From assembly GCF_000178975.2 (NCBI RefSeq), contig NC_015064.1, forward strand, positions 3,906,001 through 3,970,000: a stretch of DNA of 64,000 nt. Direction: 5' to 3'. Source of the DNA: Granulicella tundricola MP5ACTX9 (GTDB taxonomy: Bacteria; Acidobacteriota; Terriglobia; Terriglobales; Acidobacteriaceae). The notes under the pieces were generated by a model. It ran no database searches, had not been told where the DNA came from, and was given only the letters and a program-made list of their open reading frames with translations. Below are positions 26,719 to 34,228 of the stretch, piece by piece (position 1 is the stretch's first letter; the number at the start of each line of letters is the position of its first letter). The position numbers and the translations under genes are program-made.

Positions 26719-26762
26719 CACTCACCAGGATGAGACTGTGATGAATGGGGCACCGGTTTGTG
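26719..26762 (+). repeat. Direct repeat related to 27076-27118
   Basis: Starts CACTCACCAGGATGAGACT and goes on GTGATGAATGGGGCACCGG, TTTGTG. The segment at 27076-27118 shares CACTCA, TGAGAC, ATGATGAATGGG-CAC and GG-TTGTG in the same order, about 357 bases apart. Probably two decayed copies of a larger intergenic repeat. Confidence 0.5.
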
Positions 26763-30707: not shown

Positions 30708-30847
30708 TGTTGGGGAATCTCCTTTGAGTATTGTAAATGGCGGTGGGACAGCGAATCACAGAGGGCACGGAGGGAAAGAGGGAGAACAGGCAACGGCGAC
30801 GGCAGACGCAGGTTCCCTTCGGGAATGACAACAAGAAAAGCCAAGGG

Positions 30848-33733
30848 TTAGTGGCGCTTGCCTTTGCCCTTGGCCTTTTTGTCGCGGAGGCGGGTTTTGG
30901 ATTTGGTTTTGGTGCGGCTGGGTTTGCCGGTGCGGGTTGGAGATGAAAACGTCTCCCTGCGGGCGGGTGTGGCTTTGGGTTTGCGGAGGCTTCGGGGGGA
31001 CTCGCCCTGGGGGGTGCGGGAAGGGACCAGGGCGAACTGGAGGCGGCGGTTGGGGCGGTCGATGCGGTCAAGGAGGACGTGGACGCGCTGGCCGAGCTTG
31101 AAGACGCGGCCGGAGTGGGAGGCGACGATGACGCGGTCGGTGTCGCGGAAGAAGAAACGGTCGGGGTCGCCGAAGGGGAGGGATTCCGAGAGGCTCTGGA
31201 TGGGGACCATGCCTTCGATGAAGAGGTCGTCGAGCTCAACGTAGAAGCCGTACTTGGTGCAGGAGAGGACGGTGGCGTGGAACTCCTCGCCGACGCGGTC
31301 CTGCATGAACTTTATTTTTTTCCACTCCATGAGCTCGCGCTCTGCGTCGTCGGCTCGGCGTTCTGATTGGGAGGATTCGAGGGAGATGGCGGCGAGTTCT
31401 TCCGGGGGGAGGGTGGTGGAAACCCACGTCTCAGAAGCGAGACGTGGGGCACCCGGTTTTGTGCTGCTCCGCTTTGAGGACCAGGGTTGGGGGTCGGTGG
31501 AGAAGATGGGTTGGCCGTTGGGGTTGGCGTTGGCGTGGAGGGCGGCGCGGATGAGGCGGTGGACGATGAGGTCAGGGTAGCGGCGGATGGGGCTGGTGAA
31601 GTGGGTGTAGCTGGGGCTGGCGAGGGCGAAGTGGCCTTCGTTCTTTTCGCTGTAGCGGGCCTGCTTGAGGGAGCGGAGCATCAGGTACGACAGGATGCGC
31701 TCTTCCGGGGTGCCGGCGATCTTTGCGGTCAGCTTCTGGTACATCAGTGGGGTGACTGGGATGGATTCCGGGATCTCGTGGGATTGGGCCTGGCGGGTGC
31801 GGCCTCCGTGGCGTTCGGATGCGGCACGGTTGGAGCGGCGGTCGGACTTCATTGTGAGTTTTTTGACGGGTAAGGACGAGAAGCCGAGGGTCTGGCCGTA
31901 GGTTGCGGCAACCTCTTCGAAGTCGAGGATGCGCTTGGCGTCGGGGAGCTCGTGGATGCGGTAGATGCTGGGGCCGAGGGCTTCGAGCCAATGCGCGACG
32001 CACTCGTTGGCGGTGAGCATGAACTCTTCGATGAGGCGATTCGCCCAACCGCGTTCCGACCGGGTGATGGCGGCCATGTTGCCCTGGGGGTCGAAGCGGA
32101 TGACGGGCTCGGGGAGGTCGAAGTCGATGGAGCCGCGGCGGTGGCGCTTGCGGTTGAGCTTCAGGGCGAGGTCGTACATCTGCTCGAAGGCGGGGGCGAG
32201 GTCGAGGAATTGGAGGCGGGTTTCCAGGTCGCGGGTGTGTTTTTCGGATTCGGCGGGGGAGAGGTCTGTGGAGAGGTACGCGGAAACCCACGTCCCAGAG
32301 TCGGGACGTGGGGCACCCGGCGGGGGTGTGGTGGAGGAGGTGTCGAGGATGGATTGGACCTGGGTGTAGGTCATGCGGCGGGCGCTGCGGATGATGCCTT
32401 CGCAGAGCTGGTAATCGACGACCTCGCCGTGGTTATCGATCTCGGCGATGCAGGAGAGGACGAGGCGGTCCTCGTCGGGGCGGAGGGAGCACATGTTCGA
32501 CGAGAGGGACGGGGGGAGCATGGGGACGGAGCGGTCGGGGAAGTAGACGCTGGTGCCTCTTAGCCGGGCCTCCAAATCCAAATCTGTTCCGGGGCGGACG
32601 TAGTGGCTGACGTCGGCGATGTGGACCTGGAGCTGCCAGTTGCCGTTGGGGAGGGGCTGGACGAGGATGGCATCGTCGAAGTCGCGGGCGGTTTCGCCGT
32701 CGATGGTGACGATGGGCAGGCCGCGGAAGTCGTGGCGGAGGGAGAGGTCTTCCGGGGTGAGGGTGTCTACGGTTTGGTCAGCGCTGGCGGCAGCCTCTGC
32801 GAGGACGTTGGCGGGGAAGGCGTAGGGCAGATGGTGCTTGCGGATGACGATCTCGACGTCTACGCCGAAGGCATCGGGGTGGCCGAGGATCTCCAGGATG
32901 CGGCCCTGGGCGGGGCGGGATTCAGTGGGGAAGGAGGTGACTTCGACGTCTACGGCCAGGCCTTCGAGGAAGTGGGGGAGCGAGGGGTCGAAGCTGAGTT
33001 CGCGCCTGGCCTCTTCGCCCAGGACTCGGTGCTGGGACTCTGCGGGCGTGGCGGGGAGGGTGGGTTGGCCGTCTGGGGCGGACTCGATGAGGATGGGCTG
33101 GGTCATGCGCTCGTCGAGCGGGACGATGTAGTGGAAGTTGGCGGTGTTGTAGGAGTCTGGGGTGGTGCCTCGGCTGCCGCGGCCGCGCGCATAGTGGAAG
33201 ATGCCGACGACGGTGGTGTTGCGGCGGGTGAGGATGCGGGCGATACGGCCGGAGCGGCGACCATCGACGGCCGGGGGGGCTTCGTCGACGAGGACTTCGT
33301 CGCCTTGCATGGCTCCGTTGAGCTCGTGCGGCGGGATGAAGAGGTCGTCCTCGCGCTTGGAGGAGCCGTTGGGGCGGACGAAGCCGAAGCCGTCGCGGTG
33401 GAGGTCCAGCTTGCCGGCTACGAGGTTTTCCCGGGTGATGCGGCCGTGTGGACGAGTACCCCTATCCCACGTCCCAGAATCGGGACGTGGGGCACCCGGA
33501 CGTTCTGTTTTGTCTGGCGTGGCGCGGGGGAGGGCCCACTGGCCGTCGTCGATCTTGACGAGGTCTCCGCGAAGGGTGATGCGGGCGAGCTGCTCCAGCA
33601 GCAGCCGGCGCTCGCGTCCGCCGCCGAGGCCGAGCTCGCGGATGAGCTGCTTGTAGCCGGCGCGGTGGGAGGGGCTGCGCTCGATGAAGCGGATAAGATC
33701 GCGGTCGGATTGGGGGTACGGGGAGTTCGGCAT
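30848..33733 (-). CDS. rnr: Ribonuclease R, with three palindrome-encoded insertions
   Basis: A 961-residue 3'-5' exoribonuclease that degrades structured RNA, longer than the roughly 810 of E. coli RNase R. Order: winged helix (about 8-70), cold-shock domains (100-260), RNB catalytic domain with DGETARDFDDAIL (about 345) and HRRGSIDFDLPEPVI, S1 domain (about 825-905) and a Lys/Arg-rich tail. Three 11-residue insertions with the pattern PGAPR-x-x-S-x-TW lie at residues 79-89, 472-482 and 760-770, each coded by the same 34-base palindromic element in the same frame. All three fall in expected variable loops or linkers, so the enzyme should still work. Confidence 0.95.
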   Translation of the reverse strand: MPNSPYPQSDRDLIRFIERSPSHRAGYKQLIRELGLGGGRERRLLLEQLARITLRGDLVKIDDGQWALPRATPDKTERPGAPRPDSGTWDRGTRPHGRITRENLVAGKLDLHRDGFGFVRPNGSSKREDDLFIPPHELNGAMQGDEVLVDEAPPAVDGRRSGRIARILTRRNTTVVGIFHYARGRGSRGTTPDSYNTANFHYIVPLDERMTQPILIESAPDGQPTLPATPAESQHRVLGEEARRELSFDPSLPHFLEGLAVDVEVTSFPTESRPAQGRILEILGHPDAFGVDVEIVIRKHHLPYAFPANVLAEAAASADQTVDTLTPEDLSLRHDFRGLPIVTIDGETARDFDDAILVQPLPNGNWQLQVHIADVSHYVRPGTDLDLEARLRGTSVYFPDRSVPMLPPSLSSNMCSLRPDEDRLVLSCIAEIDNHGEVVDYQLCEGIIRSARRMTYTQVQSILDTSSTTPPPGAPRPDSGTWVSAYLSTDLSPAESEKHTRDLETRLQFLDLAPAFEQMYDLALKLNRKRHRRGSIDFDLPEPVIRFDPQGNMAAITRSERGWANRLIEEFMLTANECVAHWLEALGPSIYRIHELPDAKRILDFEEVAATYGQTLGFSSLPVKKLTMKSDRRSNRAASERHGGRTRQAQSHEIPESIPVTPLMYQKLTAKIAGTPEERILSYLMLRSLKQARYSEKNEGHFALASPSYTHFTSPIRRYPDLIVHRLIRAALHANANPNGQPIFSTDPQPWSSKRSSTKPGAPRLASETWVSTTLPPEELAAISLESSQSERRADDAERELMEWKKIKFMQDRVGEEFHATVLSCTKYGFYVELDDLFIEGMVPIQSLSESLPFGDPDRFFFRDTDRVIVASHSGRVFKLGQRVHVLLDRIDRPNRRLQFALVPSRTPQGESPRSLRKPKATPARRETFSSPTRTGKPSRTKTKSKTRLRDKKAKGKGKRH
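31423..31456 (-). repeat. Coding palindromic element, copy 3 (in rnr)
   Basis: 34 bases, plus strand CCCACGTCTCAGAAGCGAG then ACGTGGGGCACCCGG. Arms CCCACGTCTC / GAGACGTGGG form a perfect 10-base dyad. The stem changes are compensated relative to the other two copies (CTC/GAG instead of CCC/GGG), evidence for selection or spread of the paired form. Codes PGAPRLASETW in RNase R. The bases GGAAA just to the left are shared with copy 2. Confidence 0.85.
32287..32320 (-). repeat. Coding palindromic element, copy 2 (in rnr)
   Basis: 34 bases, plus strand CCCACGTCCCAGAGTCGGG then ACGTGGGGCACCCGG. Arms CCCACGTCCC / GGGACGTGGG. Codes PGAPRPDSGTW in a variable loop within the RNB region. Preceded by GGAAA as in copy 3. 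Confidence 0.85.
33466..33499 (-). repeat. Coding palindromic element, copy 1 (in rnr)
   Basis: 34 bases, differing from copy 2 at one loop position (AGAATC against AGAGTC). Codes PGAPRPDSGTW in the linker between the winged helix and the first cold-shock domain. Same orientation and same reading frame as the other two copies. Confidence 0.85.
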
Positions 33734-33781
33734 CGTCAGGGTCGATTGTAGGCTGATGGCTCTGGGCTGGGTTGGCGGTTT

Positions 33782-34228
33782 TTAGATGAGCCGCGGATCG
33801 AAAGGCCGGTTGTAAATCTTGGTAATCCGAAGCTCCGGCGCTTGTGGGTGTAGCGGGTTGACGATCAGGTTCCAGGTTTCAGGCAGGAGGGCGCTGGGAA
33901 CTTCGAGCAGTAGAGTGCGTCGAGAGGCCAGCCATGCGTCGCCCTGCCGCTGGGTCGCGGTGGGATCTGCACGCCAGTTGGCTGGGAGCCCTGACTCTTC
34001 GAGACGTTCAAGCGAGAGGCCTTTAGGGGATTCGATGCGGAGGAGTTGAAAGTTGGCCGGACGATCTTCCGCGTCGATCTCCAGGTGGACAAGCGTTTCA
34101 AGCAGCGCGGTGGACGGGTGCCATGTGCAGTAGACGACCGGACGTCCGCGCGTGTGCCACCGGCCGGAGACATAGAGGCCGCCGGCACCATCGAGCGTGG
34201 CGTAGTTGCTGATGCGCCAGAAAAGCAT
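33782..34228 (-). CDS. RES-domain toxin (NAD+-degrading type)
   Basis: A 148-residue RES-domain protein. The conserved polar residues of the family are visible in FWRISNY (Arg near residue 5), the GGLYVSGRWHTRGRPVVYC segment with Arg and Tyr, and a late Ser/Glu region. Characterised members deplete NAD+ by phosphorolysis. The antitoxin gene sits two bases upstream, antitoxin first, the usual order for this pair. Confidence 0.9.
   Translation of the reverse strand: MLFWRISNYATLDGAGGLYVSGRWHTRGRPVVYCTWHPSTALLETLVHLEIDAEDRPANFQLLRIESPKGLSLERLEESGLPANWRADPTATQRQGDAWLASRRTLLLEVPSALLPETWNLIVNPLHPQAPELRITKIYNRPFDPRLI

Follow-up and report, generated by a model that had tools for sequence, protein, structure and literature searches.

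The RNase R gene of Granulicella tundricola MP5ACTX9 contains three copies of a 34-base palindrome, and the locus raises the question of how a single gene came to hold the same hairpin three times and kept its reading frame. The gene lies in a 64,000-nucleotide stretch of contig NC_015064.1 (C5:3906001-3970000; hereafter the window) of a 5.5-Mb genome in 6 contigs. We conclude that the three segments are very probably copies of a repetitive extragenic palindromic (REP)-type element, belonging to an acidobacterial family and moved by a cognate REP-associated tyrosine transposase (RAYT, also called TnpA_REP).

Table 1. Features under discussion. Positions are those of the window, except for the RAYT gene (contig C5); aa, residues of the encoded RNase R.
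Feature	Position	Strand	Description
RNase R gene, 961 aa	30848..33733	minus	Open frame, intact; holds three elements; TIGR02063 above cut-off
Putative REP-type copy 1	33466..33499	minus	PGAPRPDSGTW, aa 79-89; linker ahead of first OB/cold-shock domain
Putative REP-type copy 2	32287..32320	minus	PGAPRPDSGTW, aa 472-482; within residues 465-501
Putative REP-type copy 3	31423..31456	minus	PGAPRLASETW, aa 760-770; loop C-terminal of RNB core
Probable decayed copy, second stem type GGTGCCCCATTCATC...GGTGAGTG	26719..26754	minus	Outside RNase R; judged by eye beside an intact second-type copy (L149, 1994)
RAYT gene	C5:1793542-1794078		NF047646; by eye, motifs HVH and YIHRNP; among solved structures nearest to 4er8 (TnpA_REP)

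The encoded protein scores 619.1 bits against TIGR02063 (cut-off 597.85) and carries the Pfam domains RNB (residues 333-733), CSD2, OB_RNB (from residue 107), and S1; the RNB aspartates D345, D351, D353, and D354 are invariant in a 32-row alignment. As a first-pass annotation made from the letters of the window had claimed, the three palindromes share one strand and one frame of this intact open reading frame (ORF), copies 1 and 2 are a single base apart (in the loop), and between copies 1 and 3 a C-to-T/G-to-A pair has changed that preserves the stem, to which one changed loop base must be added. Each copy is predicted to fold into an RNA hairpin (-21.9 to -26.2 kcal/mol, z -2.4 to -3.8), with 3, 0, and 1 of 200 shuffles folding equally well; an Rfam search of positions 30800-33800 returned no match up to E = 1. 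The placement of the copies in linkers and a variable loop, also proposed at first pass, agrees with a structure predicted from 32 sequences (mean predicted local distance difference test, pLDDT, 73; predicted template modelling score, pTM, 0.65), in which pLDDT at the three blocks is about 40, 56, and 44: copy 1 lies in coil with pLDDT below 50 across residues 73-99, copy 2 in coil up to residue 481 followed by a short predicted helix (482-486), and copy 3 in coil with pLDDT below 50 across residues 753-771. Alignment with solved structures sets 37 residues of the second insert (465-501) opposite one residue (312) of chain 5xgu, and 38 residues opposite three of 8cdu. We infer that RNase R is a tolerant host, and that the inserts need no new function to account for their presence. 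Two different RNB exonuclease ORFs of the genome hold the element, 30848-33733 and another at L205:1485 (L numbers denote loci and G numbers genomes), where it may fall upstream of the true start.

Scanning the genome and its relatives, as the first-pass annotation had proposed, places the RNase R copies in a large dispersed family. A strict pattern for the C-type stem (GGGTGCCCCACGTC-N8-16-GACGTGGG) matched 33 times in the genome against 0 for the reversed control, so that the RNase R hairpins are not due to chance; a T-type stem pattern matched 52 times, one site matching on both strands, again with 0 reversed matches; and a loose pattern (GGTGCCCCA-N10-30-TGGG) matched at least 153 times, nested double matches counted. 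A hairpin finder applied to the fetched stretches gave 102 hits at 101 sites (52 T-type, 33 C-type, 6 G-type, and 11 with other stems), a set complete by number for the C and T types and incomplete for G and other stems. The foot, GGGTGC, is constant and the stems are variable and covarying; in 92 copies of equal length the conserved span runs from about 6 bases before GGG to 2-3 past the final GGG, and GGG precedes T in 92/92 aligned 32-base copies, giving element ends GGGTGC and GGG(TT). One copy, L210:1506-1541, is double-footed (GGTGCCCCATGTC...GACATGGGGCACC) and is counted on both strands among the 102 hits; a pair of matches in G086 (C2:355442-355477) resembles it. Across the family, GGTGCCCCA-N14-30-TGGG was matched in 97 of 100 sampled genomes (our own included) at a reversed control of at most 4 matches per strand, with G022, G063, G079, and G091 showing no more matches than the control; among the matches listed, stems differ both between and within genomes.

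The same genome encodes a candidate mobilizer. One of its four Y1_Tnp genes (Table 1) scores 95.7 bits against NF047646 (REP-associated tyrosine transposase; cut-off 80), and its frame ends within an element whose GGGTG...GGG sequence is identical to that of RNase R copy 3. RAYT matches, some weak, occur in 85 of the 100 family genomes. At the 30 loci returned for the best of these matches, our own included, a hairpin lies within 400 bp in 29 (the exception is L197) and an inward-pointing pair, often with a shared stem, in 19; orientation depends on the side of the gene, with same-to-opposite counts of 30:4 on the 5′ side and 6:29 on the 3′ side (Fisher 1.7e-9). The background density is 17 hairpins in 599 kb, and the same RAYT loci hold 5 in the 57.7 kb beyond 400 bp. 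In G067 and G090, as in our own genome, the stem flanking the RAYT gene recurs elsewhere in the same genome. A phage-defence role for the RAYT was rejected, as PADLOC returned no match for it.

A further line of evidence is orientation. In 101/102 hits the C-rich strand, taken over a flank of about 3 kb, is the one that reads GGGTG, the sole exception being the second face of double-footed L210, so that single-footed sites stand at 100/100; counting one hit per locus gives 87/87. Base composition of the motif was rejected as the cause, since similar motifs without a hairpin fall on the C-rich strand in 38/74 cases, as was transcription, since 12 genic copies are antisense. Genes with a C-rich coding strand carry the element in sense (22/22) and those with a G-rich coding strand in antisense (12/12), a split that may be favored by the two gene models used, which were trained on those C-rich and G-rich classes. 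Skew in the genome averages 0.17 in absolute value and exceeds 0.1 in 66% of 80 sampled 3-kb intervals; around the element it averages -0.27 for non-genic and -0.31 for genic copies (classes by a codon model trained on the window). The same orientation holds elsewhere, in G051 (17/18), in the named RNase R loci (16/17), and more weakly in G086 (22/28, from 18 loci of its 69 matches); the RAYT loci of relatives give only 46/75, as expected for a gene flanked in both orientations. Fork direction is a weaker correlate than local skew: by a half-chromosome rule with dnaA at the start of C5, applied without a located terminus, the 80 C- and T-type copies of C5 divide into 59 against the fork and 21 with it, and the skew is positive at both ends of C5, a poor fit to a simple two-replichore picture. 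GC skew in this genome is also strong and patchy (up to about 0.4 in 3-kb intervals; L248-L267 and the window), is not simply a matter of gene direction, and does not flip at dnaA. This record would be accounted for by insertion that is strand-specific and tied to replication, followed by inversions that shifted blocks.

The mechanism that we propose is as follows: i) the RAYT would act on single-stranded DNA, cutting and joining it at the GGTGC-footed hairpin, probably while the DNA is being replicated, as the strand-locked orientation indirectly suggests; ii) cutting at replication time would allow only one strand orientation to be used; iii) insertions would land both within and between genes; and iv) those surviving in genes would keep the reading frame, sit in a permissive loop, and read as a small hydrophilic peptide in the frame that they occupy. 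We hold it an evenly balanced proposition that RAYT insertion uses one strand set by replication, such that each copy is a fossil arrow of a past replication direction, and that replication decides whether proteins, among them the recurrently decorated RNase R, are decorated in sense or in antisense, with protein tolerance as a later filter.

Is there anything special about RNase R? The 79 RNase R loci of relatives, of which the named ones are mostly Granulicella, Edaphobacter, and other Acidobacteriaceae, hold 11 hairpins inside the gene (two in L078, three in L142, and one each in L079, L081, L121, L122, L144, and, marginally, L137), and none of the 11 interrupts the RNase R frame. The hairpin finder detected none at site 1 (covered by 76 of the 79 loci) or at site 2 (covered by all 79); at site 3 (covered by 77), hairpins with other stems occupy the same loop in L078, L121, L122, and marginally L137, and another common place lies near residue 329 (L078, L079, L081, and L142). 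L135 carries a degenerate copy, and a hairpin-less head at the end of L103 was disregarded. In L142 (3977-4163) the three hairpins are antisense, in frame, and tandemly spaced at 78 bp (26 residues) within RNase R. Within the genus, RNase R is present in 41/41 genomes; an alignment of 29 loci of relatives, reduced to 27 usable ones when L238 and L246 were dropped for a wrong frame, contains no hairpin within RNase R, and most of the 27 are shorter by at least 30 residues at site 2, some having a shorter extension, while linker and loop lengths at sites 1 and 3 are variable. A second repeat, of GTCATTCTGAGCGAAGCGAAGAATC type, also lies in frame in proteins (L112:5174, L121:5192, L005:485, L200:1190, and L018 near the start; peptides ERSEESQ, HPERSEG, or VILSEAQNL), and in L112 and L121 it occupies the third-site RNase R loop; we take it to resemble the published CGTC REPs.

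E. coli RNase R degrades structured, REP-bearing RNA, and one could imagine that the hairpins in the RNase R mRNA were recruited for regulation, tying the level of the enzyme to its activity. Three stable hairpins in a single message and the copy in the second RNB exonuclease ORF (L205) speak for this, as does the excess in RNase R genes, which hold 11 of the 17 hairpins of the 79 loci on 35% of the bases (p 0.019). Yet three of those eleven form the one L142 tandem array and L137 is marginal, which leaves the enrichment weaker, a hint of RNase R as an insertion hot spot; the same element sits in unrelated genes; and sites, stems, and orientation vary between species. We consider regulatory recruitment very unlikely.

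What the element does in other genes bears on a different alternative, a coding-adapted palindrome of the Rickettsia palindromic element (RPE) kind whose spread depends on in-frame translation. A two-model codon score called 34 of the 102 hits genic (22 sense, 12 antisense) and 68 non-genic; the genic copies use five frames (18 and 4 in sense; 6, 5, and 1, the last marginal, in antisense). A codon model trained on the window, which called 22/102 genic, all sense, was rejected as an artefact of its C-rich training set: Pfam searches of ten long ORFs that it had passed over identified eight known proteins, seven antisense and one sense (L020, where the element is upstream of the domain and not genic by the two-model score), and two without a match, and ten further ORFs gave no Pfam match.

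In-frame insertion within coding genes has Pfam support for 29 of the 34 genic copies; of the others, L001 and L014 gave no match, and the relevant frames of L035 (marginal), L056, and L215 were not scanned. The Pfam-supported hosts, whose names are our own assignment wherever finer than the Pfam name, are RNase R (three copies), a GlmS-like protein, an Lhr-type helicase (two), another DEAD helicase, an RNA methyltransferase, a photolyase-related protein, GH20, a beta-lactamase/NamZ protein, LysRS, an SMC hinge protein, UvrA (two), ValRS, a MutS2-like protein, PMT_2, an aminotransferase, a copper ATPase (two), a nickel-insertion protein, MetRS, an amidase, AlaRS, a WD40-like protein, ScpB, a Clp ATPase, and the second RNB exonuclease (L205). 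Four are aminoacyl-tRNA synthetases (LysRS, ValRS, MetRS, and AlaRS), enzymes which like GlmS and SMC are essential in most bacteria. The element precedes the recognized domain in L205, L057, and L152, so that the in-gene call there depends on the true start. The copies in LysRS, MetRS, and UvrA fall in inserts that each map to a single junction of a solved structure, the element-bearing stretch being 54 residues facing none in LysRS, 33 facing four in MetRS, and 40 and 43, each facing four, in UvrA. In L018 (2-2914), beta-lactamase and NamZ domains share one ORF with the element in the linker, an arrangement that might have arisen by gene fusion at the element. The three copies in RNase R, a number that had been called striking, are indeed the maximum for any gene seen here; two each in UvrA, the Lhr-type helicase, and the copper ATPase, and double insertions in uvrA already described (PMC3733652), make RNase R less exceptional.

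An RPE-like origin would fit the limited choice of frames: stems of C and G type are genic in 22/39 cases against 11/52 for the T type (Fisher p 8e-4); Cys is coded by 0/34 genic copies, where a mean of 25% of the six frames would code it (product 4e-5, assuming equal frames); and the T stem, which in the RNase R frame would code Cys, is absent from the 18 copies in that frame. These limits are accounted for, however, if only tolerated peptides survive, and it is hard to reconcile dependence on translation with 68 non-genic copies out of 102, with the use of both orientations and five frames, with an orientation that tracks strand skew rather than coding sense, or with an attached REP-type transposase. 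Such an origin is accordingly quite improbable, and of the "mobile or templated coding repeat" of the first-pass annotation the dispersed, probably mobile part stands; the templated coding part is not supported, given the non-genic majority and the transposase. That the three segments are ancient conserved parts of RNase R, or a chance likeness of proline-rich linkers, can be dismissed as next to impossible: linker 1 and the third-site loop do vary in length among relatives, but an identical hairpin type is abundant genome-wide and orthologs lack it at these sites, the reverse of the pattern (conservation in relatives, no copies elsewhere) that the first-pass annotation had set against its own claim.

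We wish to be equally explicit about what counts against a RAYT-mobilized REP-type element: i) mobility is deduced from sequence, and no transposition event has been observed; ii) the foot is GGTGC and not the defining GT[AG]G; iii) the inserts in genes span 33-54 residues, of which the element accounts for only 11-12; iv) the closest RNase R rows are 77% identical, no near-identical strain offers a clean empty site, and since the linkers of relatives vary at sites 1 and 3 the exact ends of the insertions are not fixed; v) our own RAYT gene has the cognate type only on its 3′ flank, the hairpin 5′ of its start being of the second stem type and in the less usual orientation; vi) in 5-kb stretches at the other three Y1_Tnp genes of our genome, no hairpin of this kind was seen by eye; vii) among 8 Y1 loci, five, from relatives, match this RAYT and only one of these (L065) is flanked, the other four not, so that the hairpin link belongs to this RAYT subfamily and not to all Y1 genes; and viii) some pattern-rich genomes have no RAYT match at E 0.001 (G054 with 161 pattern matches, G055 with 61, G072 with 45, G108 with 24, and G064 with 22).

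How does the element compare with known systems? In REP/RAYT systems, or REPtrons (PMC2817692, PMC3116915, PMC6006769), as here, a short hairpin, one side of which bears a conserved foot, is dispersed in about 100 copies, and a RAYT gene with HuH and Y motifs is flanked by inverted copies; REPINs have been described (PMC3116915), as have GT[AG]G feet, REPs in frame inside RAYT genes, and double-foot REPs of subclass 2.4, with which our L210 may be compared (PMC6006769). The differences are that the foot here is GGTGC, the head to which our search was confined, that a third of the copies are genic by codon score, that orientation is locked to GC skew, and that the RAYT has motifs EHVH and YIHRNP, which have no counterpart among the rows consulted in the published class table. 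GTAG repeats have been reported from Proteobacteria, Cyanobacteria, Chloroflexi, and PVC (Planctomycetes-Verrucomicrobia-Chlamydiae), and GTAG and CGTC REPs occur within DNA repair and translation genes (two in uvrA, and in tRNA synthetases, a photoreactivating enzyme, and DNA polymerases), likely in flexible linkers or loops (PMC3733652); the kinds of host are the same as ours, whereas our element has neither tag. The words "RNase", "ribonuclease", and "exoribonuclease" are absent from the main text of that paper. The comparison with Rickettsia drawn at first pass is a fair analogy in that RPEs are palindromic and lie in frame within genes; it fails in that they end in CGTC (as cited in PMC3733652), and the CGTC-tagged group, RPE-4 and RPE-6 included, is reported to lack a dedicated transposase, whereas our element ends in GGGTGC and GGG(TT) and has a RAYT attached. 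Acidobacterial TIRYT genes and TIRtrons have been described from T. saanensis, K. versatilis, A. capsulatum, and G. mallensis, where inverted repeats flank a RAYT-like gene (PMC3733652). Compared by description, they share with ours a flanked acidobacterial RAYT-like gene, and possibly the element's RAYT and TIRYT are the same transposase group; they differ in being described as terminal inverted repeats (TIRs), not REPs, and by eye their published motif GGGGWSAS is not in the element. For Granulicella aggregans, the available text of PMC12306157 gives palindrome counts only. A literature search, covering mainly titles and abstract starts, found no report of GGTGC-footed REPs or of REP orientation following GC skew, and among the matches listed for GTGCCCCA no title concerned bacterial repeats.

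REP/RAYT systems are widespread and their mobility is hard to see, and a strict record of orientation makes the strand choice of a RAYT testable. Some thirty natural in-frame insertions show where proteins tolerate inserts, and annotators should be warned that odd Pro/Gly-rich insertions in acidobacterial proteins are in some cases repeat DNA. The orientation of the insertion sequences IS608 and ISDra2 (IS200/IS605) follows the direction of replication. Their Y1 transposase, to which our RAYT is related, acts on single-stranded DNA of the lagging-strand template (PMC6006769); those are autonomous insertion sequences, whereas ours is a non-autonomous hairpin, with its GGGTG strand on the C-rich strand and only a partial link to fork direction. 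In-frame REPs in genes are already known (PMC3733652); what is new here is the GGTGC-footed variant and, as the strongest new point, the strand lock.

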